From Oscillibacter sp. (GTDB taxonomy: Bacteria; Bacillota; Clostridia; Oscillospirales; Oscillospiraceae): 46,792 nucleotides of DNA. The position numbers and the translations under genes are program-made. Within the stretch, counting starts at the first letter, position 1; every line of letters begins with the position of its first letter. Shown piece by piece: positions 1,972-23,803 of this stretch. The notes under the pieces were generated by a model. It ran no database searches. It was not told the origin of the DNA and saw only the letters and a list, made by a program, of their open reading frames with translations. The DNA lies in the NCBI GenBank assembly GCA_017446225.1, contig JAFSRH010000029.1, positions 1 to 46,792 on the forward strand, written 5' to 3'.

Positions 1972-2940
1972 ATGAGCCACAAAAAACGAATCGTTTGCTT
2001 TTTTATGCTTATCGTCCTGTTCGCGCTCTCCGCGTGCGCTTCCGGACAGAACGCCGCTCCCGAACAGCCAAAGGATGATACCGCGGCGGAACTTTCCGTT
2101 GTGGCGACAGGCGGCGAGAAAATCGTACGGCTGGGCAGTTCGCCTTACGCCCTGCGGATCTCCGCCGAACTTTCGCCTTTACGCGTATCCAATGAGGATT
2201 GGGCGGACGATATGGTAGCCCATTATTGCGACAACGACAAACTGTTGGATTTTTCGGTCTACCAGTTTTCCAAAGAGGGCTACCCGGACACGCTGAAAGA
2301 GTTTGTCGAACAGGAAGCGGAGGAGTACGAAGCCACGGAAATGGTAACCGATATGACTGTCAACGGAATCTCCATAGGATATTACCGCGCTATGGATAGT
2401 TATGACGGCGTGTTTCGCGATGGCGTTACCTATGTGCTGGATAACCATGACGAGTATATCGAGATTGACTTCTGGTTCATTGGCTATCAGTCGGAACAGA
2501 AAACGCGGGAGATTATCAATACGCTGACCGTCATTGAAAGCGACGTCCTTCCGTTAGGCGCGTACCGGATACGGCTTCCGCGGGATTTTACGCTTGTCTC
2601 CGCCGCGGACGCGAATCCCGCCGTTTACAAGAGCGGAAATATGTCCCTGTGCCTGTATATCAGCCGCTTTCCCGCGGCGCAAACGTCCTTGGCGGATTTT
2701 GTCCGCGCGGAAGCCTCGCGCAAAAACGGCTCGAATCTTGAAACGGACGCGGAAATTAACGGCATTCCGGCGGCGTCCTATTGCGCCGTGGAAGTCATGG
2801 ACGGCGCGTTTCACAGTACATTGACCCGTGTCCTGAAGGACGATGGCGGCTTTACGGCGCTGACGTTCCGTCTGGACGGAATCACGGCGGAGGCGGAGGC
2901 GGCGAACATCTTAAACACGCTCGGCGCAATGGAACTTTGA
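1972..2940 (+). CDS. Lipoprotein with two tandem copies of one domain
   Basis: The 322-aa product begins with a charged n-region, a hydrophobic stretch and the lipobox LSAC (Cys23), so it should be lipid-anchored on the outer face of the membrane. The mature part looks like an internal duplication: about residues 50-185 and 195-322 each run through a YALRI/YRIRL-type strand, a ...FV..EA segment, an NGI...Y segment, a V.DG.F....TYVL/TRVL segment and end in (I/L)NTL. I do not recognise the domain; it resembles small clostridial lipoprotein domains of unknown role. It sits 13 bases before the STAS gene, so it may be the first gene of the signalling operon and a candidate surface input, which is inference. 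An ATG at 1967 is out of frame; 1972 is the start. Confidence 0.8.
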   Translation: MSHKKRIVCFFMLIVLFALSACASGQNAAPEQPKDDTAAELSVVATGGEKIVRLGSSPYALRISAELSPLRVSNEDWADDMVAHYCDNDKLLDFSVYQFSKEGYPDTLKEFVEQEAEEYEATEMVTDMTVNGISIGYYRAMDSYDGVFRDGVTYVLDNHDEYIEIDFWFIGYQSEQKTREIINTLTVIESDVLPLGAYRIRLPRDFTLVSAADANPAVYKSGNMSLCLYISRFPAAQTSLADFVRAEASRKNGSNLETDAEINGIPAASYCAVEVMDGAFHSTLTRVLKDDGGFTALTFRLDGITAEAEAANILNTLGAMEL

Positions 2941-2953
2941 AAGGGGTTACACA

Positions 2954-3259
2954 ATGGCATTGTTGATTGACATGAAGCGCAACGGCGACAGCCTGACGGT
3001 TTCTCCGGAAGGAAGGCTGGACACAAGCACCGCCCCGAACTTGGACGCGCAACTCCGGCCTGTTCTCAGTGAGGGCGTGAAGAATCTGGAAATAGACCTG
3101 AAAGCGCTGGATTACATTTCCTCCGCCGGACTGCGTCTCCTGCTTTCCGTTCAGAAAATCATGAGCGCTCAGGGGAACATGGTCGTGCGGAACGTCAACG
3201 AATCCGTGATGGAAGTCTTTCAAATCACGGGGTTTACGAACCTTCTGACCATTGAATGA
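2954..3259 (+). CDS. STAS-domain anti-sigma factor antagonist (SpoIIAA/RsbV-like)
   Basis: A 101-aa single STAS domain. The strand GRLDTSTAP and the signature YISSAGLRLLLS are typical; by alignment with RsbV the phosphorylated residue would be Ser57, the second serine. Proteins of this family bind a GHKL-type kinase when unphosphorylated and release its target; phosphorylation by the kinase inactivates them and a PP2C phosphatase reactivates them. Both a phosphatase (7409) and a kinase (9081) are encoded on the same strand downstream, so the set is a complete partner-switching triad. The AAAGGGG site at 2940-2946 precedes the ATG. No sigma factor gene is adjacent. Confidence 0.92.
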   Translation: MALLIDMKRNGDSLTVSPEGRLDTSTAPNLDAQLRPVLSEGVKNLEIDLKALDYISSAGLRLLLSVQKIMSAQGNMVVRNVNESVMEVFQITGFTNLLTIE

Positions 3260-3304
3260 ACCCGTATCCCATCGGCAACGCGGCCGATAGAAAGGAAATT
3301 TATC

Positions 3305-4411
3305 TTGGAATACAGCATTCAAGAAATGATCTTCCGGAAAGGGCGCGCTCCGGAAGAGACGGATTATGTCAACTCTAATGAGAGTATGTTAAACTTTCGC
3401 CTGTTTTCCGGGGACTTTTACGAGTGGAACGGCGGCAAACTGCGCTTTAAGCAGTGCGCCGATGTGATGGATTTTGAACAGGCGGCGAAAGCCTTTCCGC
3501 CTTTCGCGGGCATTACGTATAAGAACCGGGAGAAATTTCCGTACTTTGTCGGCGGTCTGGACCTGTTGGCCGGGTCCATGGAACGCGGGGAACCAATCGC
3601 GGTGGAAGGCGGGCCTTGTCTGTTCGGGGAATATGAGGTGACCGTTTCCGTCCGGCTGAAAGACGGACAAACGCGCCTGTTCGACTACGCCAACGGGAAA
3701 GCCTATCTGGAAGAAACCGAGTTTGAGGAAACCGACGATCTGGTGTCCTATCTGCGCACGAACGGGGAGCGCGTGGAGGAAATCCGCTTCCGGCAGAACA
3801 AATGGGACCTGACGCCGCAGGAATATTTGAACCTTTGCTACCCGTTCGAGATCGCCGCCGCCCTTCGCGGTCCGCTGGTCATTCCCATTCCGGATATGTC
3901 CTACCGGAAGTATCTGTTCTACGCGCTGGAATACGTCCCGGAGAAGATCCGGGCGGAGACCATGGAAGCGTTCGATGCCATCCTGAACCGGATTGCCGAT
4001 GTTTATCTGAACGTGATCGCGAAATTACAGGCGCGGTTTCAAATTGAGCGTTTCGCGTGCGTCCACCGGCGCGACCCGGAAGCCCTGAAAATCTGGTACG
4101 AAAAACGCGTCCCCTACATTGAGCGCGGAAAGGTCCTGCGGAGCCTGACGCGTCTGCCGGAAAAAATCGAACCCATCAAGGACTATATCTCTATGCCCGC
4201 ACTGCCGTTTTACCTCTTCGGCTCGACCAACCTTCTGCAAGTGGACAGCGTGGACGAAACGGACTCGTACCGGAAATGCAAGAAGGCGCACAAAAACGCC
4301 TGTCAAATGGGCTGCTTCCTGATTCCGGAACTTCTCAGCGGAGACGGCGTCCATACGCTCTACAGCGCGCCGTTACAGTGGAAGGAGTACGGCAATTACA
4401 ATGAGCCGTGA
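3305..4411 (+). CDS. Uncharacterised 368-aa cytoplasmic protein inside the partner-switching block
   Basis: I do not recognise this family. The protein has no signal peptide or membrane helix and is rich in aromatic and charged residues. It appears to have an N-terminal beta-rich part (about 1-165) and a helical C-terminal part (about 175-368) with conserved-looking stretches such as ALRGPLVIPIPDMSYRK and LPFYLFGSTNLLQVD. Three cysteines fall near the C-terminus (RKCKKAHKNACQMGC), which might bind metal, but this is a guess. The start is a TTG at 3305 behind AAAGGAAA; there is no better ATG. It lies between the STAS gene and the sensor-MFS gene with short gaps, so a role in the same signal pathway is likely from context only. 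Confidence 0.8.
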   Translation: MEYSIQEMIFRKGRAPEETDYVNSNESMLNFRLFSGDFYEWNGGKLRFKQCADVMDFEQAAKAFPPFAGITYKNREKFPYFVGGLDLLAGSMERGEPIAVEGGPCLFGEYEVTVSVRLKDGQTRLFDYANGKAYLEETEFEETDDLVSYLRTNGERVEEIRFRQNKWDLTPQEYLNLCYPFEIAAALRGPLVIPIPDMSYRKYLFYALEYVPEKIRAETMEAFDAILNRIADVYLNVIAKLQARFQIERFACVHRRDPEALKIWYEKRVPYIERGKVLRSLTRLPEKIEPIKDYISMPALPFYLFGSTNLLQVDSVDETDSYRKCKKAHKNACQMGCFLIPELLSGDGVHTLYSAPLQWKEYGNYNEP

Positions 4412-4427
4412 TAAGGGGGATTGGTTT

Positions 4428-7412
4428 ATGTTGCGAACGCTCCAAGAGAAAGCGCGAAACGCCTTCCGCGTTTTCAGGGAGTACCTCTTCTCTCGCGGAC
4501 TGAAGCCCGCGGATTTGACGATAGCGCTTCTTGCCGTGGCGCTGGTTTTATTCTGCTGGCTGTTTTCCATGCCCTTTTCGGAAGTTGTGACGTCCACCAT
4601 GGATATCACGCTGGGCTACAGCGCGAAACAGGACGAGCAGGGGCTTTATTACGTTGTGGACGATGGGCACAGCCGCCTGTTTTGCTTCAATGAGGAAGCC
4701 GACATTCGATACGCCATTGTGAATCCTTCGGACGGCGATGGGAACCTTTATATTGATGATTTCGCTGTTGAGAACGGCCTTGTTTACCTCTCCGCCACGG
4801 AATGGAACGGAATGCTCTTGTCAAGAGAAGTCATTGTCGTTTTCAAGAACGGACGCTACCTCCGTACGATTGCGGAGCGGGATTACAGCGCCGTGCTGGT
4901 GAACAAGCACCGCTTCCACGGAATCACGGTCCGGGACGGCGTGCTGTCCTATGTCGAATGCGAGGACAACGCGCTCATTCCCCATTGGATTACGTTGGCG
5001 GACGGGGAGGAGCGCACACAGAAAATTTACTTCGATAACGCCTTTAACGCGGTCAGCGACTGCGCGTTTTACGGCAACGGCTTCTACGTCATGGAAAAGA
5101 ACGGGCGTATTACGGCCTTCGAGGACGGGCGGCGGACGCTGGCCTATTCCACCCGCTGGAAAGGCGAGGAAAGCCGCTTCCCTTACCGTATGACGCTTGA
5201 CCCGCACGGCACGATTTGCTTTATAGATCTCCGCGCGGAAGAAGCGGTAAAAGTTGACAGCGCGCTTCAACGGAGCGTTTCCATCTGTGAGGAAACGATC
5301 TCTCAAACCGTTCATTTCACACAGGACGGAACCGGGGCCTTGTATCTGGAAGAGGACGGCTTACACGTGCTTTCCGACACGGGAACGAAAACCTACCTCA
5401 CGTTACACAAACCCCTGTGGCGCATTGCGTTGCAAATCGTATGGTGCGCGGCAATGGCGGTACTGACGCTTCTGCTCGCCACGCTCCTGCTCCGCGGCGT
5501 CATTGCCTTCGTGACCCGGAAATACACTACGGTGCAGTTAATTTCCTTCTGGGTCATTGGCACGGTGTCCACGGTTTCGGCCTTGCTTTGCGGAATGCTG
5601 ATCGGCAATTTCAGCGACATTTACCGGACCCGGATTACAAGCCAGATGGAGAACAGCGCCCGGATTGTGGCCAATCAGATTCCGTATGGGGTCATTGCCC
5701 AGATACAGCGGGCGGAAGACTTTGACGGCGAGGCCTACGAAACCCTGTGCAATGTCATGGAACAGGTCTTTCCTATGGACTTAGACCTCAACCGGCAGCT
5801 TTACTGTAACATTCTGCGTCTCTCGGAGGACGGCTCCATGGGTTTTGCCGTGGCGTATCTGGATCAGTCCATAGGGACCTATTTCCCGCTGGACGAAAGC
5901 GAACTGGCGGAAATGCGGGAAACGTACCAAGTGGAAGGAAGCGCGCAAAGCGTATGGAATAACGAGCTGGCGGATGTTTCCGGTACGTATCTTTCGGTGA
6001 CAGTCCCCGTTTATGAAAACGGGAAAGTCAGCGGCATTGTGGCGGTCGGAACGGAAACGAAGATCATCCAAGACATCATTACGCGTCTGCAAATCCAGAT
6101 TTTCCTCTCCATTATTGTTATCATGATGCTGATCTGGCTGATTATCTCCGAGGTGATGGCATGGTTCAGCAACCGGGGACTGTACCTGCGCACAATCAAC
6201 GAGGGAGACCTCAGCGCCCTGCCCGGGCACATGGTCCGTCTGCTGGTGTTCGCGGTGTTCGCCTGCTACAATATGACGACAACCTTCCTGCCGGTCTGGA
6301 TTCTGCGTAACAGTGAACTCTTCCCGGAAGCGTCGCGGGATTTCATGGCCTCCCTGCCGCTGACGGTGAATATCTTTGTCATTGGCGTGATGTCCCTGTT
6401 TACCTCCGCCGCCGTGCGCCGTCTGGGACTGGGAAGAATTATGACGCTCAGCACGCTTTCGTCCCTCTGCGGAAATCTGCTGATGTTCCTGTTTCCTTCC
6501 TATTACGCCATTTTCGCCGGACTGCTGTTGGACGGTATCGGCGTGGGCCTGATTACGAACGCGACTTATGTTCTGTTGACGTATATCAAAGATGAGGTCA
6601 ACCAGCAATGGGGTTTCACCCTCTACAACGCGGCGTATCTGTCGGGAATCAACTTCGGAATGCTGTTAGGCTCCCTGCTGGCCGTGGGAATCGGACAACG
6701 GCCCGTGTTCCTGATAGTGGCTCTGGTGTGGCTCTCCCTGACGCTGATCGGGAACCTGATGTTACGGCAACTGTCGGGACTGCTGAACTCGGAGACACAG
6801 GAAGAGGAAGCGCAGGAAGCCGGGATTTCCTTCGGGCGGTTCCTGTTCAACAAGCCGGTGATGAGCTTTATTGTCATGATTCAGAACCCCTATATTGTCT
6901 TTAACAGTTTCGTGTTCTACTTCGTCCCGCTGTTCTGCGGCAACATGGGCTACGATGAGACCATTGTCTCTATTTTGATTATGCTGTACTCGGAAGTGGC
7001 CGTGCTGACGGGCGATATGCTCACGCACCGTATCGCAAAAGCGCTGGGCAATAAGGGAATGTACGCCGCGTACCTGACCAATGTCCTTGCCGTAATGACC
7101 TTCGCGCTGACGCGTAATATGCTGGGCGTGGTGCTGGCCCTGCTGATGATGGGAGTCGCCGCCGCCTACGGAAAGACCCTGCAACAGACATGGTTCCTGA
7201 AACAAAAACAGGTCCGGCAATACGGCGAGGACCGCGCTATGGGCGTTTACAATTTCACGGAAAATATCGGCGAATCGCTGGGACCGATTGTGTTTGCCAA
7301 TCTGATGGCGCGGCGTCCTCTTCTGGGCGCGGTATCCTTGTTCTGCGGCGGGGTTGCCGCGCTTGGCGCCGGACACTTTGCCCTCAATCGAAAGGAGCTG
7401 AAAGAAAAATGA
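4428..7412 (+). CDS. Sensor-MFS fusion membrane protein
   Basis: About 994 aa. In order: membrane helix (30-50), a long extracytoplasmic beta-rich region that reads like propeller blades (55-330), two helices (332-362 and 371-395), a second extracytoplasmic region resembling a Cache/PDC sensor (400-550, ending in VPVYENGKVSGIVAVG), a helix (555-578), then a full MFS-type domain of about 12 helices (601 to the end). Ordinary MFS carriers are 380-450 aa, so the N-terminal 600 residues are an added sensory half. The ATG at 4428 is preferred to that at 4401 because AAGGGGG lies 8 bases before it; starting at 4401 would add nine residues and overlap the upstream gene by 11 bases. The stop overlaps the phosphatase start as ATGA, implying coupled translation. 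I infer a transporter-like receptor feeding the phosphatase. Confidence 0.85.
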   Translation: MLRTLQEKARNAFRVFREYLFSRGLKPADLTIALLAVALVLFCWLFSMPFSEVVTSTMDITLGYSAKQDEQGLYYVVDDGHSRLFCFNEEADIRYAIVNPSDGDGNLYIDDFAVENGLVYLSATEWNGMLLSREVIVVFKNGRYLRTIAERDYSAVLVNKHRFHGITVRDGVLSYVECEDNALIPHWITLADGEERTQKIYFDNAFNAVSDCAFYGNGFYVMEKNGRITAFEDGRRTLAYSTRWKGEESRFPYRMTLDPHGTICFIDLRAEEAVKVDSALQRSVSICEETISQTVHFTQDGTGALYLEEDGLHVLSDTGTKTYLTLHKPLWRIALQIVWCAAMAVLTLLLATLLLRGVIAFVTRKYTTVQLISFWVIGTVSTVSALLCGMLIGNFSDIYRTRITSQMENSARIVANQIPYGVIAQIQRAEDFDGEAYETLCNVMEQVFPMDLDLNRQLYCNILRLSEDGSMGFAVAYLDQSIGTYFPLDESELAEMRETYQVEGSAQSVWNNELADVSGTYLSVTVPVYENGKVSGIVAVGTETKIIQDIITRLQIQIFLSIIVIMMLIWLIISEVMAWFSNRGLYLRTINEGDLSALPGHMVRLLVFAVFACYNMTTTFLPVWILRNSELFPEASRDFMASLPLTVNIFVIGVMSLFTSAAVRRLGLGRIMTLSTLSSLCGNLLMFLFPSYYAIFAGLLLDGIGVGLITNATYVLLTYIKDEVNQQWGFTLYNAAYLSGINFGMLLGSLLAVGIGQRPVFLIVALVWLSLTLIGNLMLRQLSGLLNSETQEEEAQEAGISFGRFLFNKPVMSFIVMIQNPYIVFNSFVFYFVPLFCGNMGYDETIVSILIMLYSEVAVLTGDMLTHRIAKALGNKGMYAAYLTNVLAVMTFALTRNMLGVVLALLMMGVAAAYGKTLQQTWFLKQKQVRQYGEDRAMGVYNFTENIGESLGPIVFANLMARRPLLGAVSLFCGGVAALGAGHFALNRKELKEK

Positions 7413-9058
7413 AAACATACCGGAATCCGCTCCGGCGCAGTATTCTGTTCGGGTGCGGGATGTTCGTAATTTTGCTGTGCCTGACGCTCTCCGTGCTGGG
7501 CTTTGCGATCTACTATAATGGGATGATGGAAAAGTACCAGACCTACATCGGGGACGCTTTGACCCTGACCATGACGGAAATTGACGGGGAGGATTTGAAA
7601 CGCTGTATCGAAAGCGGGGAAAAATCCGAACAGTTTCAGCATACGCAGGACTTTCTCAACCGGGTTATGGATCGTTACGATTTCTATTTTTTATATATCG
7701 TAAAGCCCTTGAACCTGAACAAAACCGACAACATGATGGACGTAATGGCAGGTATGACGGAGGCGGAACGGGAAGCGTTAAACGGCGTCAGCTCCGTTAC
7801 GCTGGGCGGACTGACGGGCGAGAGCTATCCCCCGAAAGTCGCGCAATTCTATCTGAACGCTATGGACGGCGGACAGAAAATCAGTTACTACCTTAACTAC
7901 ACGGAGTTCGGCTTTATGTATACGGGTCTGGTACCTGTTTTGGACGCTTCCGGAAACGCGGTCGCAATTCTGGCGGCGGACTTAAGCATCCGTGAGGTGG
8001 TAGACGTATTTCTCCGCTACGTTCTGATCGTGCTGGCGGAAATCGTGATTTTGTCAACGCTCTTCCTGTTCATTCTGTACCGCTGGCTCAACCGGCGTGT
8101 GATCGCGCCCATGACAAAGCTGGAGCGTTCCGCGCAAAGTTTCGTTTTGAGCAGTCAGGGAGAGGAGAACCCGGACGCGCTCACGTTCAAGGACCCGGAA
8201 ATTCATACCGGCGATGAACTGGAATCTCTTTCCAGCGCGCTCAGTTCCATGTCGTATGACATGAAACGCTTCATGAAAAACCTGTTGAAAGTCACCGCCG
8301 AAAAGGAGCGTATCGGCGCCGAACTGAACGTGGCCACGAAAATTCAGGCCGATATGCTGCCGCGCATTTTCCCGGCGTTCCCGGATCGCAAGGAGTTTGA
8401 CCTTTACGCGACCATGACGCCGGCCAAAGAAGTCGGCGGCGATTTCTACGACTTCTTCATGATTGACGATGACCGCCTTGCCATGGTTATGGCGGACGTA
8501 TCCGGCAAGGGCGTGCCCGCCGCGCTGTTTATGGTGATTGCCAAGACGCTGTTGAAGAACCGCGCGCAACAGGACGCCGGAAGGGAAATTCATCCCGGCC
8601 AAATCCTCGCGGACGTGAACAATCAGCTTTGCGAAAACAACGATGAGGAACTGTTCGTAACCGTATGGCTGGGCGTGCTGGCGATTTCCACGGGACATCT
8701 GATTTCCGCGAGCGCGGGCCACGAGTACCCCGCTTTCTACCGCGCCGGGGCGAAATTCGAGCTGCAAAAGGAACGTCACGGCCCGCCGCTGGCGACCTTG
8801 TCGGGGTTGCGTTACCGGGAGAACGAGACGGATTTGGGCCACGGAGACGCGCTGTTTATTTATACGGACGGCGTGACGGAGGCGACCAGCGCGCAGGAGG
8901 AATTGTTCGGCGAGGAACGCATGATCAACGCGCTCAACGTCCACGCGGAAGACGCGCCGGAAACGATTATCAGCGATGTGCGGAAAGACATTGACGCGTT
9001 CGTGAAGGAAGCGCCGCAGTTTGACGACATTACGATGCTTTGCCTTCGCTATCGCTGA
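7409..9058 (+). CDS. Membrane-bound SpoIIE-type PP2C serine phosphatase with extracytoplasmic sensor
   Basis: 549 aa. Helix at 12-34, an extracellular sensor region (about 35-203) resembling single Cache domains, a second helix (204-227), a HAMP-like linker, a coiled linker (LKVTAEKERIGAELNVATKI) and a PP2C/SpoIIE domain. The metal-binding aspartates are in place: GGDFYDFF (Asp345), ADVSGKG (Asp363), YTDGVTEA (Asp487) and FDDIT (Asp539/540). The family dephosphorylates STAS antagonists such as the one encoded at 2954. The ATG at 7409 is chosen for AAAGGAG at 7391-7397 and the 4-base overlap with the previous stop; the frame stays open upstream but without a ribosome site. Confidence 0.92.
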   Translation: MKTYRNPLRRSILFGCGMFVILLCLTLSVLGFAIYYNGMMEKYQTYIGDALTLTMTEIDGEDLKRCIESGEKSEQFQHTQDFLNRVMDRYDFYFLYIVKPLNLNKTDNMMDVMAGMTEAEREALNGVSSVTLGGLTGESYPPKVAQFYLNAMDGGQKISYYLNYTEFGFMYTGLVPVLDASGNAVAILAADLSIREVVDVFLRYVLIVLAEIVILSTLFLFILYRWLNRRVIAPMTKLERSAQSFVLSSQGEENPDALTFKDPEIHTGDELESLSSALSSMSYDMKRFMKNLLKVTAEKERIGAELNVATKIQADMLPRIFPAFPDRKEFDLYATMTPAKEVGGDFYDFFMIDDDRLAMVMADVSGKGVPAALFMVIAKTLLKNRAQQDAGREIHPGQILADVNNQLCENNDEELFVTVWLGVLAISTGHLISASAGHEYPAFYRAGAKFELQKERHGPPLATLSGLRYRENETDLGHGDALFIYTDGVTEATSAQEELFGEERMINALNVHAEDAPETIISDVRKDIDAFVKEAPQFDDITMLCLRYR

Positions 9059-9080
9059 CGGTTGGACAGGAGGAGATCGT

Positions 9081-9482
9081 ATGTCTGAATTGAAACTTGC
9101 GGCAATGGTCGAAAACTTGGAACCGCTCACGGCCTTTATAGACGAACAACTGGAAGCTCACAACTGTTCCATGAAGGCCCGGACACAGCTTGATATTGCC
9201 ATAGACGAACTGTTTACCAATATCGCCCGTTACGCCTACGGCACGGAGACGGGAGAGGCGGTCGTTTCCGTGGAGTTCCCGGACGGCTTCGCGGAAATCA
9301 CGTTCCGCGACTGGGGAACGCCTTACAACCCGCTGGAACATGAGGACCCGGACGTAACGCTTTCGGCGGAGGAGCGGGGCATTGGCGGACTCGGTATCTT
9401 TATCGTCAAGAAGACTATGGACGCCGTTTCCTACCGCTACGAAAACGGGCAAAACGTCCTTACCATTCGCCGGAAACTGTAA
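9081..9482 (+). CDS. RsbW/SpoIIAB-like anti-sigma kinase (GHKL ATPase)
   Basis: A 133-aa stand-alone HATPase_c_2 domain. The N box is IDELFTNIARYAYG, the G1 box RDWGTPYNPL and the G2 box GIGGLGIFIVKKTMD. Such proteins phosphorylate a STAS antagonist and hold a sigma factor or another target in check. It is the third member of the triad with the STAS protein at 2954 and the phosphatase just upstream (22-base gap). ACAGGAGGAG directly before the ATG at 9081 fixes the start. Its target is not visible here; no sigma factor is encoded within the window. Confidence 0.93.
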   Translation: MSELKLAAMVENLEPLTAFIDEQLEAHNCSMKARTQLDIAIDELFTNIARYAYGTETGEAVVSVEFPDGFAEITFRDWGTPYNPLEHEDPDVTLSAEERGIGGLGIFIVKKTMDAVSYRYENGQNVLTIRRKL

Positions 9483-16449: not shown

Positions 16450-17994
16450 TTACGCTTCGTCCGGGGGCGCGTCCACTTCCGCCAGCGGACGCTTGATTTT
16501 ACGCGTGGCGCTCTTGAGGAACGGGTACTTCCGTACGACCAGTTTCGTAATGGCCCGGTACGTGGGCTGTCTGCGGTTGTAACGGTCCAAAATTTCCTGT
16601 AAGGCGCCCTGTACGGCGTCCGCGTCCATGCCGCGCTGTTCGACATAGTCCGGGTCCGGGTAAATCCGCGCCGTCAGGCCGTTGCTCTCTCCGGTTACGA
16701 TGACTTCGGAAACCAGCGGTTCCAGCGCGAAATTCCCTTCCACTTCCTCCGGCGACACGTTCTCCCCGTTCGACAGAATGATCAGGTTTTTCAGGCGTCC
16801 CGTGATGAACAGGAAGCCGTCCTCGTCCAGATGTCCCAAGTCGCCGGTATGGAGCCAGCCGTCTTTGAGCGCCTCGGCGGTCTCGGCGGGCATTTTGTAG
16901 TAGCCCTTCATCACGGACGAACCGCGTACCTGTACCTCTCCGTTGACAAAGCGGACTTCCGCGTTGTCCAGCGGACGGCCCACGGACCCCGGTTTGTTGC
17001 CCAGTTCGTTATTAGAGCTGATGGTCGGCGAACACTCCGACATCCCGTACCCTTCGTAAACCTCTATGCCGTACTTCTCCATGGCCCCAATATAGTAAGG
17101 GTCCAAATGCGCGCCCCCGGCGTACACGCGCCGCAGATTCGGGCCGGTAATCGCCCGTACGGCGTCCGGGCCTTCCTTCTCGGCGGCTTGCAGACGCTTG
17201 CAAAGCGTCTCAATCATCAGGGGGACCATGAGCATGATGTTCGGCCGGAAGCGGCCGATGTTGCGAATCATGTGGAGCAGGGAGTCGTTGATACAGAGGG
17301 TGGCGCCCTTGTTGAAGCCCATCAGCCAGTCCATGACCAGACAGTAGGCGTGATGAATGGGCAGGACGCTGAGCATGACCGTCCCCGGTTCTACCGTGAC
17401 GTACACGTTTTTCATGTTGTCGTAGAGGTTGCGCTGTGTCAGCATGACGCCCTTGCTCTTGCCGGTGGTGCCGGACGTGTAAATGATGGTGCACACATCG
17501 TCTTCACCGGGCGGGTCGGCGCTTTCGGAATCGGAGGCTTCCGCGAGAAGGTCGCCGAACGTGACCGCGCCCGGAACGGTCTCTTCCGTCAGCGAAACGA
17601 TAAGGCGCACATTGGGACAGGACTGTTTTACAACGGGCGCCAGACTGTCCAGTTTCGGACTCAGGAAGAGCGCCTGAGAGTCGGAGCGGTTCAGCAAATC
17701 GACCAGTTCCTCGGCGGGAAGTCCGGCGTCCAGAGGGACGGCGGTAGACTTGCCGCTGACCAGTCCCAGATAGGACGCGATCCACGGATAGGAACTCGTA
17801 CCAATCAGCGCGACATGCGCGCCGGTAAAGCCCCGCGCGGCCATTGCGTTCCGGACGCGCTTCCGGTCGGAGTCGAGCCGGGCATAGGAGCGTTCTTCGG
17901 TATTCTTGCGTACGGCCCAGCGGACGGCGGGCAGGTCAGCGTACCGTTCCGCGCTGCGCCGGATGATTTCGGGAATCAGCCTCTGTTCGGACAT
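16450..17994 (-). CDS. AMP-forming acyl-CoA/acyl-ACP ligase
   Basis: 514 aa, full length for the ANL superfamily. The core motifs are present: P-loop YTSGTTGKSKGVMLTQRN, YEGYGMSECSP (A5), TGDLGHLDEDGFLFITGR (A7/A8 hinge), NGENVSPEEVE and the A10 lysine in SATRKIKRP. The sequence is closest in feel to long-chain fatty acyl ligases and not to amino-acid adenylation domains, since the Asp of the amino-acid-binding A4 motif is not evident. The gene directly follows a carrier protein (21-base gap), so it probably loads an acyl group on that carrier. GGAGGAACGT before the ATG at 17994 supports the start. Last gene of a four-gene operon. Confidence 0.9.
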   Translation of the reverse strand: MSEQRLIPEIIRRSAERYADLPAVRWAVRKNTEERSYARLDSDRKRVRNAMAARGFTGAHVALIGTSSYPWIASYLGLVSGKSTAVPLDAGLPAEELVDLLNRSDSQALFLSPKLDSLAPVVKQSCPNVRLIVSLTEETVPGAVTFGDLLAEASDSESADPPGEDDVCTIIYTSGTTGKSKGVMLTQRNLYDNMKNVYVTVEPGTVMLSVLPIHHAYCLVMDWLMGFNKGATLCINDSLLHMIRNIGRFRPNIMLMVPLMIETLCKRLQAAEKEGPDAVRAITGPNLRRVYAGGAHLDPYYIGAMEKYGIEVYEGYGMSECSPTISSNNELGNKPGSVGRPLDNAEVRFVNGEVQVRGSSVMKGYYKMPAETAEALKDGWLHTGDLGHLDEDGFLFITGRLKNLIILSNGENVSPEEVEGNFALEPLVSEVIVTGESNGLTARIYPDPDYVEQRGMDADAVQGALQEILDRYNRRQPTYRAITKLVVRKYPFLKSATRKIKRPLAEVDAPPDEA

Positions 17995-18015
17995 ACGTTC
18001 CTCCTTCGGTTGCGC

Positions 18016-18264
18016 TTACGCTTCCTCCTGCGTGAGTTCTTCCAGATAGTCCAACGCCTCGGCGACAGTGGTCAGCGTGACGGCCTTCTGTTCGTCCAGT
18101 TCCACGTCAAACGTATCCTCGATATCGCCCAGAAACGCCATGAAGTTCAGGGAATTGAATCCCAAATCCTCCCGGAAACGCATTTCCGGCTTGAGGTCGT
18201 TTTCCGGCATTTCGCAGTATTGCGAGATCAGCCCCAGAAACTCTTTTTTCATTTGTTCGCTCAT
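18016..18264 (-). CDS. Acyl carrier protein with an Asn-Ser-Leu attachment motif
   Basis: 82 aa, acidic, helical. The phosphopantetheine site reads LGFNSLNF: Ser38 is present, but the usual Asp before it is Asn37. The following helix (FLGDIEDTFDVELDEQ) is typical of ACPs. Placement between an acyl ligase and a condensation-like protein suggests a dedicated carrier for that operon and not the ACP of fatty acid synthesis. AAAAGGAG precedes the ATG at 18264. Confidence 0.92.
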   Translation of the reverse strand: MSEQMKKEFLGLISQYCEMPENDLKPEMRFREDLGFNSLNFMAFLGDIEDTFDVELDEQKAVTLTTVAEALDYLEELTQEEA

Positions 18265-18292
18265 TGCTTACTCTCCTTTTCTGAAATTCCGC

Positions 18293-19684
18293 TCAAATGT
18301 AGGTGATGATTTCGCCGATGGTCATGTCCGGCTCCGCGATACCCTTATAGATAATCTTCATCATATAATAATACAGCAGTTCCATATCGTGGTAGGTCAG
18401 GGACGCCTTCTGATAATGGAAGTCGAAAATCAGTCCGCCGTCATTGGTACTGTGCGTGACGGTGAGGTAAATTTTCTTGGTGGCCGCGCCGTTCGGGTAC
18501 CACACGCTCCGGACGTTGATTCCTTTCAGGTGCTCGTTCTTCATCCGTACCGGCATGGGCTGGTAGGTGAGGGACATACTGATATACTCGGTATCGTCCG
18601 GCGTGGGATACAGTTCCTTCATCATGGCCTTGACCTTCATGGGGTCGTAGTTGCTGTGGAGGTAGACGCGGTTCTGCACGTCCTGTACTTTGTAGGCGGC
18701 GTCCAGAAACTCGGTGTCGGGGGTGATGATGGTCCGGCAGGGATAGGACAGCGTCCGGCTTCCGCCGCAGGTCCACTCTTCCCGCGTGGAACGCCGGGAA
18801 ACGAAGTTCCGAAGCGTAATGTCCTGTTGTCCGCCGTTCATCTTGGAAAGATAGGTCCGCATGGCCAGCAGAATCAGGTTCGTCATGGAGATGTTATGAT
18901 TCATGCAGAAGTCCATCATATTCTGTGTGGCCTCCGGCTCCAAATGGAAGTCGGCGATTCCAACGGAGCGGTCTTTCTTCTCCACGTCCGCCGCGCACAG
19001 GGTACGGTCCCCGTGGGCCTTGCGGCTGGCCCGAAGCACGCCCGGACCCTGAATGTCGGAGTAAATCGGCTCTCCGTGTTCGGTCAGCATATCGCGCCAG
19101 AATTTTTCGTCCTTGGCCTGACGCTTACTGTTGCCGGCTTTTTCAAGGTCCTTTTTGAGCACGTCAATAAAGGACGCCAGCGGCGCGGGGTACTCACTGC
19201 CGAAACGGTAGTGGCAGTAAATTTCCATGATGTCATTGACGGTGACGATCAGGGCGGTGGAGTCGGTCAGGCGGTGGTCAATGTGGATATACAGGCCGTT
19301 GTAGCCCTCCGGCATTTTGACCATCGTAAACTCGGCCATGGGGATGTCGGGGGCGTTGAACTCCTCATAGGTCTTGCTCTGCAAGTACGCGTCCGCCTCC
19401 GACATGGTCATGCCGGACAGGTCCAGAAACGGCACGTCCCGGTCGTCATGGTCGACAACGTACTGCATGACATCGCCGTTTTCATCGGGAGCGGTGAAGC
19501 GCAGACGCAGACAGTCCGCGCGCTGAAACTCGTCCTGTACGGCGTGTTTCAGAAGCCCGAAGTCGATCGGCGACTGAAGGCCGCAAAACACGCTGATGTT
19601 GCAACAGCGCTGTGTGCCGGTCTCCTTGATGGGAAGGTATTGCAACATCTGGCCCACGTTTAACGGGTAAAGTTCCTTTTCCAT
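18293..19684 (-). CDS. Stand-alone condensation-domain acyltransferase-like protein
   Basis: 463 aa from the ATG at 19684, which has GGGAGGA before it; the frame stays open upstream without a ribosome site. The protein has the two-lobed outline of NRPS condensation domains and related chloramphenicol-acetyltransferase-fold transferases. The active-site motif HHxxxDG appears as DHRLTDS: the catalytic His137 and Asp141 are kept while the first His and the Gly are changed. The C-lobe contains NDGGLIFDFHYQKASLTYHD. It should move the acyl group from the carrier encoded next to it onto an amine or alcohol; the acceptor is unknown. Not part of a multidomain NRPS, which is unusual. Confidence 0.82.
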   Translation of the reverse strand: MEKELYPLNVGQMLQYLPIKETGTQRCCNISVFCGLQSPIDFGLLKHAVQDEFQRADCLRLRFTAPDENGDVMQYVVDHDDRDVPFLDLSGMTMSEADAYLQSKTYEEFNAPDIPMAEFTMVKMPEGYNGLYIHIDHRLTDSTALIVTVNDIMEIYCHYRFGSEYPAPLASFIDVLKKDLEKAGNSKRQAKDEKFWRDMLTEHGEPIYSDIQGPGVLRASRKAHGDRTLCAADVEKKDRSVGIADFHLEPEATQNMMDFCMNHNISMTNLILLAMRTYLSKMNGGQQDITLRNFVSRRSTREEWTCGGSRTLSYPCRTIITPDTEFLDAAYKVQDVQNRVYLHSNYDPMKVKAMMKELYPTPDDTEYISMSLTYQPMPVRMKNEHLKGINVRSVWYPNGAATKKIYLTVTHSTNDGGLIFDFHYQKASLTYHDMELLYYYMMKIIYKGIAEPDMTIGEIITYI

Positions 19685-19758
19685 AAGTCCTCCCAAGCCT
19701 CCGCGCAAGTTTTGTAAAGGGACGTCCTGCCGCCCGAAGGCGGAAAGGGTCAGCGTGA

Positions 19759-20904
19759 TTATATCGCCTGTTGAAAGAGCCAGTCCCGCATCTCCTGATT
19801 GTGGTAACAGACCTCCCACGCGAAATGCCCGGACTGCCAGAAAATCATGCCGGCGGGATAACGGGTCAGACGGTACTTGACGCCCGCGTTGTCCATGGCC
19901 GCCAGACACGGGTCAAGCGTCCAAGACGGGGCAATGAGCGGGTCATCATCGGAATGGAAAATCCACATGGGGATTCCTTTTAACAGGTTGATTTTGTCGG
20001 GATTGGCCGCGCAACTGACCGGGACCAGTCCGGCGAACGCGTTGGGGTGCTCCATCGCCAGCACGTACACCGCGAACCCGCCGGACGAGACGCCCGTCAG
20101 ATAAATCCGCCGCTCGTCTACGCTGTACTCTTCCACCAGCTTCCGGAGGAGGTTCCACACGGCCTTGAGCTGGGGGAAGGGCCAGAAGGGGGAATTGGAG
20201 TGGCCGTTCACGAACTGGATTAAAGACGTCCAGTTGTCCTCCTGATTGTAATGCACGCGGCACTGCGGGACCAGTACGAAACATTGATTGTGTCCCCGTT
20301 CGGAGTCCTCGGCCCACGCGGTGGCCATGGCCATTTTTTCCAAAATGGCCTCAATAGGTTCTTCCCGCTCCCCGGTGCCGTGCAAGGCGACCACGATCGG
20401 GTAGCGCTTGGACGGGTCGTAATCGGAAGGCATATAGAGGGCATAGGGGACCGTGACCTGATACTCGGTATCGTCATAGACGCTCTCCCGGAAGAGCTTC
20501 CGGACTTCGCAAAGGGACCTGCGCAGAAGATGAATTTCATACGCTTCCTCGCCGAACTCATAGGAACCGGCCCGGATATGAATCGTCATGCGCATATCCT
20601 GCTCAAAACAGGACTGGCGCTTATCGAGGCGGACAATATAACCATCGTAATATTCGTAATAGGGGACTTCCGTCCCGGCGATATAGTCCCCCATAGCGGG
20701 GTCAAGGTCTTCAAAGCCATATCGGCCCGCGTCATGGTCCGCCCGGATACTGATATAATAGGCGGGGTTGTAGTCCAAGTGAAATTTCAGGGCAAAGCAG
20801 TCGGGGGGGACTTCTATTTCGTACTCTCTCACATCCGGGTCGAACGGAATCAGACTTTCCGTGGAAGCGTTAATACGGACTTCCATCTTGTATATTGCGC
20901 TCAT
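19759..20904 (-). CDS. Esterase of the PHB-depolymerase/LpqC type with an N-terminal beta domain
   Basis: 381 aa without signal peptide. Residues 1 to about 125 form a beta-rich domain similar to cadherin-like or Ig-like domains fused to esterases (FDPDVREYEIEVP). The rest is an alpha/beta hydrolase: VALHGTG oxyanion region, nucleophile elbow GVSSGG with Ser273, acid in HSDDDPLI and histidine in GHFAWEV. First gene of the operon with the condensation protein, carrier and ligase; it might hydrolyse the product or release the acyl chain. AGGAGTAACCGAAT precedes the ATG at 20904. Confidence 0.85.
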   Translation of the reverse strand: MSAIYKMEVRINASTESLIPFDPDVREYEIEVPPDCFALKFHLDYNPAYYISIRADHDAGRYGFEDLDPAMGDYIAGTEVPYYEYYDGYIVRLDKRQSCFEQDMRMTIHIRAGSYEFGEEAYEIHLLRRSLCEVRKLFRESVYDDTEYQVTVPYALYMPSDYDPSKRYPIVVALHGTGEREEPIEAILEKMAMATAWAEDSERGHNQCFVLVPQCRVHYNQEDNWTSLIQFVNGHSNSPFWPFPQLKAVWNLLRKLVEEYSVDERRIYLTGVSSGGFAVYVLAMEHPNAFAGLVPVSCAANPDKINLLKGIPMWIFHSDDDPLIAPSWTLDPCLAAMDNAGVKYRLTRYPAGMIFWQSGHFAWEVCYHNQEMRDWLFQQAI

Positions 20905-22348: not shown

Positions 22349-23752
22349 TCAGAGCAGTTTTTCAAAGTAGAAGTAGGTTTCGTCCTCCGCGATGCGGCGC
22401 ATACAGGACGATAACATCTTATAGGAAGCGGTATTCTCCCGGAAACATTTTGCGATCACGCGGCTGAGATGTACCCGGTACAGGCCCCACTCCGCCACGG
22501 CGGCGAAGGCCTCCGTACCGTAACCCTGCCCGGCGTATTCGGCGGCAACGCGGCAGCCTAATTCCGCGCTGCCCCGGTAGTCGAAATTGTACAGCACCGC
22601 CTCCCCGACAAAAACCCCGTCCAGACGAATGGCGAAGTTCGCGGCCAACCGGCGTTCAAAGTCCTGTTGCGCCACGTTATAGAAACTGCGTACGGACACC
22701 GGCTCTTTCAGTCCGGCAACGTCATCGTAACCCCACCAGCGGTTCCGGTTTTCGTCAAGGACGAGTTTGTTATAGGCGGGAATATCGTCCTCCGTCAAGG
22801 CGGAGAGGGTCAGGCGGGCGGTTTTCAATTCGGGGATGGCGTTCACGTGCCGCAAAAGCTCGTTTTGCGGCTCGAAACAGTATTTGGGCGCCAGCCGTAC
22901 GGGGGAGTATTGCAGTTTGGACGTACGAAGTCCGCGGTCCGCCGCATCGTCCTCCCGGTTGATGACGCGGCACCCCTCCCCGAAGGCGTTCGCGAACTCC
23001 TGTACCAACGCCGGATAGACGCCGATGTAGGAATACAACGCCTTTTCAACGTGGATGATCAGCGTACCGCCGCACCGCTCCGCCAGAGCCAGCGCAATGA
23101 GCCGTTCCCCGTCAAAGAAGCCCCCGGAGAGGAACCACGGCCTGTCAATCAGCGTCAACATCCGTTTGGCGTAGGACAGTTCTTTGACGGCCTTTTCGTT
23201 GTCGCCCTTTGGAAACTCCGCCTCGAACTCCGTCCAGAATTGTTCAATGGCGGGGAAGTCGTTCCCGTCCAACGGACGAAACAGCGCGTCCGGACAGCGC
23301 GCGCGGAACTTCTTGATATGGTTCCGCTGTCCGGAGTAACGCCGCCCGCTGAAGAGGCGCAAGTCGCACGGGTCATAAAGATAGTCCTGCCACGTGCGGA
23401 TATTGCTCACCCGGACGTAGGGGTAGCGCGACATCAGATACGCCGCTTTACGCTCCGGTACGACCGTAATCCGAGGCTGTACGCCGTTGGACAGGCACTC
23501 CCGTTCAATGGCGCACAGCGCGGCGTCCTCGTTCCCGTCCGGTCCGGCTACCGGGTAGTCAAAGACCCAGTGTCCCTCGTCCTCGTTCCGGATGACCAGA
23601 CAGCCCGCCACTTCCGCCCAGCATGGTTTGAGTTTCTCGCGCCACATCAGTTTTGTTCCCAGCGAATACTCACATAATTCATAGTCGCAGTCCGCGTAAT
23701 ACCGCCGCAAAAGGTCGGCGTCACTTTGACTCACAGGTTTGAACGCAATCAT
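22349..23752 (-). CDS. Fusion of a DUF2156 domain and a GNAT acetyltransferase
   Basis: 467 aa. The N-terminal 290 residues match DUF2156, the GNAT-fold domain related to the C-terminal transferase part of MprF (INREDDAADRGLRTSKLQYS is the signature). About residues 300-467 form a RimJ/RimL-type GNAT domain (ELGCRVAAEYAGQGYGTEAF holds the acetyl-CoA loop). The start is the ATG at 23752 with AAAAGGGG upstream; a TTG at 23758 is too close to that site. Substrates unknown; such fusions may acylate a metabolite or lipid. Confidence 0.85.
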   Translation of the reverse strand: MIAFKPVSQSDADLLRRYYADCDYELCEYSLGTKLMWREKLKPCWAEVAGCLVIRNEDEGHWVFDYPVAGPDGNEDAALCAIERECLSNGVQPRITVVPERKAAYLMSRYPYVRVSNIRTWQDYLYDPCDLRLFSGRRYSGQRNHIKKFRARCPDALFRPLDGNDFPAIEQFWTEFEAEFPKGDNEKAVKELSYAKRMLTLIDRPWFLSGGFFDGERLIALALAERCGGTLIIHVEKALYSYIGVYPALVQEFANAFGEGCRVINREDDAADRGLRTSKLQYSPVRLAPKYCFEPQNELLRHVNAIPELKTARLTLSALTEDDIPAYNKLVLDENRNRWWGYDDVAGLKEPVSVRSFYNVAQQDFERRLAANFAIRLDGVFVGEAVLYNFDYRGSAELGCRVAAEYAGQGYGTEAFAAVAEWGLYRVHLSRVIAKCFRENTASYKMLSSCMRRIAEDETYFYFEKLL

Positions 23753-23803
23753 GTGCAAGCCCCTTTTCTTGTGCCATGGAAAATTTATCCGAATCGAACC
23801 TTC

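Follow-up and report, generated by a model that had tools for sequence, protein, structure and literature searches.

Partner switches of the RsbU/RsbW/RsbV and SpoIIE/SpoIIAB/SpoIIAA type combine a PP2C phosphatase, a GHKL kinase, and a STAS protein. The same three components, with the motifs of their classes, are encoded in one operon of a 46,792-nucleotide stretch of DNA from Oscillibacter sp. (contig JAFSRH010000029.1, positions 1 to 46,792, of assembly GCA_017446225.1; we refer to this whole stretch as the window). In contrast to the known switches, this operon has no adjacent sigma factor, and two other genes are interleaved with those of the switch: a fusion of sensor-like domains to a transporter domain of the major facilitator superfamily (MFS), and a gene for a 368-residue protein, which we call U368. 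As described below, the signalling operon is genuine and conserved; its sensor-MFS protein is unusual, and the partner of that protein belongs to a family that is undescribed.

Transporter folds with a role in signalling have been described before. UhpC is an MFS-type sugar-phosphate sensor that feeds a signalling pathway. Unlike the fusion, it lacks a propeller and a Cache domain, and it serves a histidine kinase. PMC7096432 names UhpC as a transporter associated with signalling and describes CbrA and CrbS, transceptors that join an SLC5 transporter to a histidine kinase and that, like the fusion, have a complete secondary-transporter domain and a signalling function in one chain. Those proteins are of the SLC5 type, whereas the fusion is of the MFS type; also, CbrA includes its kinase in that one chain. 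The additional domains of the fusion, by contrast, lie outside the cell, and a separate gene encodes the phosphatase. PknD of Mycobacterium tuberculosis resembles the window's system in having an extracytoplasmic NHL propeller, which acts as an osmosensor, and an anti-anti-sigma target, which its kinase phosphorylates (PMC4601284). But PknD is a Hanks-type kinase with neither an MFS nor a Cache domain. In the open-licence literature, as judged by titles and the beginnings of abstracts, no fusion of MFS, Cache, and propeller domains was described together with partner switching or with contractile injection systems (CIS), and no open-licence full text combined three or more of the terms major facilitator, cache domain, PP2C, and partner switching. 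A survey of Cache domains (PMC4822843) uses neither the word transporter nor the word facilitator, and PMC12923769 has no occurrence of phosphatase, MFS, cyclase, sensor, Clostridia, or NHLP. STAS systems with unknown targets are noted in PMC8256260, so the lack of a local sigma factor does not by itself make a partner switch new.

The five genes of the operon (STAS, U368, the fusion, PP2C, and the GHKL kinase; Table 1) are tightly packed on one strand, as had been noted in an original prediction made from the DNA alone. The gap between STAS and U368 is 45 bases, U368 and the fusion overlap by 11 bases, the fusion and PP2C overlap by 4 bases (ATGA), and the gap between PP2C and the kinase is 22 bases. 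The components of the predicted phosphorylation switch are all present: besides their Pfam matches, the three proteins show, at the level of sequence, the features of their classes, namely the STAS domain and its motif with a putative phosphorylatable serine, the N and G boxes of the kinase (DELFTN, RDWG, and GIGGLG), and the motifs with the metal-binding aspartates of the phosphatase (GGDFYD, ADVSGKG, YTDG, and FDDIT). We take these motifs to be those expected of an active phosphatase, an active kinase, and a STAS substrate. The phosphatase had been described as Cache-like; its phosphatase domain is clear (SpoIIE, 1.7e-47), but the likeness of its ectodomain to Cache or HAMP domains is weak (Pfam, 0.083 and 0.06). 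The lack of a nearby sigma factor also held: the genome has 11 Sigma70_r2 matches and none of them is on the window's contig.

The fusion had been predicted to join two extracytoplasmic sensor-like regions to a complete MFS domain, and both parts of this description were borne out. The sensor-like regions are an NHL-type beta-propeller and a Cache-like region. A profile of 11 fusions (A5) matched designed Pizza propellers (1.3e-15) and PknD (4.5e-9) in the PDB, and the propeller is also supported by a local profile and by hydropathy; the window's protein alone gives weak NHL matches. The Pfam model sCache_3_2 matches the window's protein below its cut-off (E = 0.0023; 18.5 bits versus a cut-off of 28.4) and has E < 0.01 in 8 of the 11 fusions. 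The MFS match is strong and complete (MFS_1, 1.2e-22; 80.7 bits versus a cut-off of 33.4; residues 615-962, which align to positions 4-347 of 347 in the profile). The mean hydropathy of 18 fusions has peaks at 41-51, 348-366, 384-398, and 568-585, ahead of the MFS region. These four peaks imply the plan of a transmembrane helix, the propeller, two transmembrane helices, the Cache-like region, another transmembrane helix, and the MFS domain. Seven of the nine shorter relatives that we examined also have the four hydrophobic segments in this order, with the first loop being smaller (the exceptions are L023 and L027). Since the Pfam match is full-length, we infer 12 helices in the MFS domain, not all of which were resolved in the hydropathy scan. 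Within the MFS region, E853, E954, and N951 are conserved. The aspartate of motif A is missing from all 19 full fusions compared, one of which has glutamate in its place. It is present in 4 of 15 shorter relatives and in all 12 ordinary MFS proteins. A sequencing error that joins two separate proteins was considered and rejected: the window has a single uninterrupted frame, and homologues elsewhere are full-length and open with the same domain order.

Of 150 genomes of the family, 3 were matched in a search with the single protein, as were 13 of 391 genomes of the class; many of these matches were partial. A profile (A1) identified full-length fusions in six of the 391 class genomes, including the window's. 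A search across the phylum matched 100 of 398 genomes, mostly in the MFS part only, and added fusions from G878, G739, G800, and G618. Together with the one in G011, these class and phylum sets give 11 fusions found by fusion queries. A PP2C gene adjoins nine of them. Of the other two, L022 lacks the gene, and L078/L088 is cut off within the fusion by the end of its contig. As controls we used 20 of the ordinary MFS matches listed from the phylum search, which are from other genomes and are not matched for lineage. Across these 20 loci (about 19 kb each, with one of 10 kb), profiles for PP2C, the kinase, STAS, and U368 had no matches. For PP2C, the contrast of 9/11 with 0/20 has a Fisher p of 2.7e-6 (not corrected for kinship). 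The original prediction had named a rare linkage to STAS, PP2C, and kinase genes as an outcome that would count against it, and the linkage to PP2C is frequent.

The larger set of 20 full-fusion loci includes those that were reached through U368. By profile, 14 of them have PP2C, 8 have the kinase, 5 have STAS, and 13 have U368; in L100, tblastn also found the start of a PP2C gene at the contig end. This set leaves out L094 (whose fusion has an internal deletion), L098 (where the contig ends in U368), and L099 and L101 (where no fusion was found), and it keeps L103 despite its broken frames and L088 despite the contig end inside its fusion. The nearest relative of the window's operon is L097, from an Oscillibacter metagenome-assembled genome, with the same gene order and with 79% (fusion) and 82% (U368) identity. 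In distant genomes, the architecture of the fusion and its neighbours are kept at 20-48% identity. In L102, PP2C and the kinase are joined in one protein. In a tree of 18 fusions, the 11 that are linked to U368 group with L065, which is truncated on its upstream side, in a single clade of 12 members with moderate support (88/91), and the Bacillota part of this clade has support of 100/99; the tree has long branches, which might attract each other.

These loci also yielded several side observations. The genome that carries L097 (RGIG3329) has a second copy of the U368-fusion operon, L100. Some copies are decaying: besides the deletion in L094, U368 is split into two frames in L101, which has no fusion, and both U368 and the fusion are in several frames in L103. 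In L093 (7678-12127), the STAS gene is followed by genes for two GH3-family proteins and a PGA_cap protein. In L031, the first of the two PP2C proteins beside the fusion (6694-8358) has altered motifs (NCAFYD, GQVPGSG, and TADLGE) and a kinase-like tail, and is presumably a pseudo-phosphatase.

U368 represents an undescribed family of proteins that are probably soluble and enzyme-like. We found no match to it in Pfam, NCBIfam, or PHROG and no credible match in the PDB, where the single match (a designed barrel, E = 0.13) was taken as chance. Weak Pfam matches among other members also look like chance, and a distant relationship to DUF2156 had no support (hhalign probability of 0.3 percent). 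Nor is U368 truncated: in an alignment of the family (A4), short homologues have the same start, which agrees with the TTG start in the window, while the long ones (about 460 amino acids) have an extra helical insert after residue ~47. The motifs GGPCLFG and VIPIPDMSY are kept in all 14 rows of this alignment, which suggests that they are part of an active site. By profile, there is a strong match in 2 of the 391 class genomes and a weak partial match in 3 more. A pattern scan that covered 84,980 species identified 16 loci, a lower bound; the window's locus brings the total to 17. In 14 of these 17 loci, the fusion immediately follows U368 (one of these fusions is a remnant, another has broken frames, and a third is truncated by the end of its contig). 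L099 and L101 have U368 without the fusion, and L098 is not readable. PP2C is present in 11 of the 17, absent from 4, and not readable in 2; of the 14 pairs of U368 and the fusion, 3 have no PP2C.

Outside the U368 clade, other enzyme-like genes sit beside the fusion. A DUF2156 gene directly adjoins 5 of the 20 full fusions (L020, L021, L022, L026, and L064), and none of these five loci has U368. DUF2156 is the transferase domain of MprF, a lipid aminoacylase-flippase. In L031, a GNAT protein is found beside the fusion. The window itself encodes a protein with DUF2156 and GNAT domains, 13 kb from the operon and on the other strand, and it is possible that this protein is a partner of the fusion. 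We also noticed a parallel arrangement in L023 and L076, where a shorter MFS protein and a PP2C protein occur with a D-Ala-D-Ala-ligase-like gene (identified by Pfam in L023 and by homology in L076). The PP2C protein of L023 matches dCache and HAMP.

What controls when bacteria use CIS and peptide exporters is poorly known. Relatives of the fusion, as well as proteins in which a propeller and a Cache domain are joined to a cyclase-like domain, are found in clostridial CIS (eCIS-like) clusters, adjoining genes for Pvc16_N, DUF4280, CIS_tube, gp25, and Baseplate_J. In L019/L090, L063/L089, and L078/L088, MORN and Pvc16_N genes precede the U368-fusion pair; two of these three loci have a DUF4280 gene as well, and L089/L117 also has CIS_tube, Phage_base_V, gp25, Baseplate_J, and Tail_P2_I. 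L031, from the window's own family, has Pvc16_N, DUF4280, and an AAA ATPase, followed by PP2C and a fusion of 23 percent identity. The fusions of L022 and L092 lie beside NHLP bacteriocin exporters (TIGR03796 and TIGR03797, above the curated cut-offs). Among 15 shorter sensor-MFS relatives, five have CIS markers, three have NHLP markers, three have PP2C, and four have none of these. Using CIS and NHLP profiles that we built from one or a few loci, we found markers at 13 of the 26 sensor-MFS loci from fusion queries and at none of the 20 controls (p = 1.4e-4). One contig (G837:C70; L067 and L132) encodes both a propeller-Cache-cyclase protein and a sensor-MFS protein of the shorter kind, and it also has CIS markers and NHLP ABC1 above its cut-off.

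The window differs from these clusters. The CIS marker profiles have no match in its 46.8 kb, and the sheath model PF04984 has none in its genome (G000); of 10 other genomes searched, this model matched seven but failed to match G011, G467, and G832, although each of these three has CIS markers close to a gene of the sensor-MFS type. A CIS sheath is likely absent from the window's genome. Pvc16_N had no match in that genome, but no control matched either, and other CIS genes were not sought genome-wide. The best NHLP ABC1 (TIGR03796) match there has 361.7 bits, below the cut-off of 853.3.

The sensor head of the fusion also occurs with another kind of partner domain. Proteins of L067, L070, L079, L080, L127/L129, and L128/L130 carry a class III cyclase-like domain on a Cache-like head, and all of these six loci except L080 have a propeller match in the protein. 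The tail of the L067 protein matches cyclases in the PDB (9.4e-17), and four of the six loci have CIS markers. X320, a 309-residue protein encoded just before U368 in CIS loci, is 40 percent identical to the L080 tail over 260 residues. X320 alone has no PDB match at E = 0.01, so its cyclase label derives from the similarity to the L080 tail. Since the head is shared by the cyclase-like and MFS proteins, one sensor head appears with two kinds of partner.

What might the fusion do? The reading we favour, tentatively and with a little less than an even chance of being correct, is that it is a membrane receptor, the sensory head of a signalling unit that informs U368 and the partner switch. The core of the unit would be U368 and the fusion, usually with PP2C. 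The propeller and the Cache domain would bind a ligand or a surface cue outside the cell, and the change would pass through the transmembrane helices and the MFS core (mainly a conformational relay, as in a transceptor) to U368 and the adjacent PP2C. Active PP2C would dephosphorylate STAS, free STAS would bind the GHKL kinase, and the kinase would let go of whatever it held. The unit could be a portable control device for secretion or delivery, with relatives built into CIS and NHLP clusters; in the window's genome, it would stand alone, with the nucleotidase encoded downstream and without a local sigma factor. In favour of this reading we count the linkage of PP2C to the fusion, the position of U368 immediately upstream, the clade of U368-linked fusions, the joined PP2C and kinase of L102, the CIS and NHLP markers near sensor-MFS genes, and the osmosensing propeller of PknD. 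The loss of the motif A aspartate would fit a relay that no longer transports. Several observations weigh against this reading. MFS pumps with a variant motif A that lacks the canonical aspartate can still transport (PMC4601019), so the loss does not show that transport was lost. Four of the full-fusion loci (L022, L092, L096, and L103) have no PP2C within the 18-21 kb that was read, the low counts for the kinase and STAS indicate that the whole switch is often not local, and the PP2C protein itself includes a membrane part. Also, the association with CIS alone is weak (4 of 11 full fusions versus 0 of 20; Fisher p = 0.01, with kinship again uncorrected).

The original prediction had proposed a transporter-like receptor as the probable input to the switch, reporting to the phosphatase. 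Against a strict fusion-to-PP2C pathway stand the four loci without PP2C, the membrane part of the PP2C protein, and U368, which is the nearest constant companion of the fusion. The sensor-MFS architecture is real, but the receptor is one of two readings, as the C-terminal part in the sister proteins is a cyclase-like output. Mainly because the same head carries a cyclase-like domain, which puts the MFS domain in the output position, we kept a sensor-gated transporter or flippase as a serious rival, while considering it less likely than the receptor. The propeller and the Cache domain would then open or close transport of the product of the neighbouring enzyme (U368 here, and DUF2156, ATP-grasp, or GNAT proteins elsewhere), and the PP2C switch would control the same process separately. 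The small enzyme-like genes beside the fusions and their shorter relatives, the role of DUF2156 as the transferase domain of MprF, and the conserved E853, E954, and N951 all fit such a transporter; against it, all of the full fusions lack the motif A aspartate, its substrate is putative, and the linkage to PP2C becomes a side fact. If the enzyme-like, exporter-like, and sensor genes that lie side by side formed a circuit, then U368 or DUF2156 would make a small signal, the MFS domain would export it, the ectodomains would sense its return, and PP2C or the cyclase would pass it on, as in a cell-density device for releasing toxins or peptides. The recurrence beside NHLP exporters and CIS would suit this circuit, but the product, its transport, its sensing, and the chemistry of U368 are all hypothetical, and we consider it improbable. 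Least probable of all is that an ordinary partner-switch operon lies beside an ordinary transporter without any functional link. PP2C, STAS, GHKL, and MFS genes are all common, but chance proximity is hard to reconcile with an intact architecture and neighbours in distant genomes or with the absence of PP2C from the control loci. Going beyond the favoured receptor reading, and judging by position, we can imagine that CIS and NHLP exporters in Bacillota and some diderm lineages have the sensor-MFS proteins and the sister proteins with a cyclase-like domain as their dedicated sensor devices, one kind being interchangeable with the other, that U368 is a new enzyme family serving the device, and that the window's operon is a free-living copy that reports via partner switching to a non-sigma target; this broader proposal is doubtful.

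A family of membrane sensors that is found repeatedly beside CIS and NHLP exporters, and beside a phosphorylation switch, would provide a concrete gene to delete or swap. The fusion would exemplify a transporter fold that large external sensor domains either use or gate. With U368 there would also be a conserved family without a described relative in the libraries searched.

Table 1. Features of the operon, domains of the fusion, and other genes of the window.
Feature	Coordinates	Strand	Details
STAS-only protein, anti-anti-sigma type	2954..3259	+	Pfam STAS 1.8e-15; motif DYISSAG
U368	3305..4411	+	TTG start; no Pfam family
Sensor-MFS fusion	4401..7412	+	1003 aa from first ATG; 994 aa if ATG at 4428 is used
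NHL-type beta-propeller ectodomain of fusion	4581..5396	+	residues about 61-332, between hydrophobic peaks 41-51 and 348-366
Cache-like ectodomain of fusion	5595..6095	+	residues about 399-565, between hydrophobic peaks 384-398 and 568-585
MFS domain of fusion	6204..7406	+	residues about 602-1002; motif A aspartate replaced by arginine
PP2C (SpoIIE-type) phosphatase, membrane-anchored, 549 aa	7409..9058	+	SpoIIE 1.7e-47; PDB serine phosphatases; motifs
GHKL serine kinase / anti-sigma type protein, 133 aa	9081..9482	+	HATPase_c_2 3e-22; motifs
5'-nucleotidase-like protein, N-terminal hydrophobic segment	9500..11158	+	5_nucleotid_C 3e-30
Predicted lipoprotein-like protein, 322 aa, upstream of STAS	1972..2940	+	no Pfam family
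DUF2156 (LPG_synthase_C) + GNAT protein	22349..23758	-	LPG_synthase_C 4.2e-23

The operon is flanked by two genes that recur in its nearest relative. The 5'-nucleotidase-like gene begins 17 bases after the kinase, and a homologue is also found after the operon of L097 and, with its frames broken, after that of L101. Upstream of STAS, it is uncertain whether the gene for the lipoprotein-like protein belongs to the operon; L097 encodes a 325-residue homologue upstream of the same operon. We found no match to the fusion in a phage collection (tblastn), no Rfam match at the gathering threshold in the window, and no tRNA. Promoter-like and terminator-like sites are at the level of shuffled sequence (4 versus 5.0, and 15 versus 11.7 with a standard deviation of 3.4, respectively). 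In the genome as a whole, the SpoIIE domain has three matches, two of them above the cut-off.

Two other regions of the window are worth recording. At its edge (16-1005) is a repeat-rich open reading frame that, by eye, we take to be surface-protein-like. On the reverse strand (16450-20904), genes for an AMP-binding ligase, an 82-residue protein (18016-18264) that we take to be acyl-carrier-like, a condensation-domain protein, and an esterase-like protein run in the same direction, and this looks like a small acyl-conjugation cluster, similar to those for nonribosomal peptide synthetases, near the operon.

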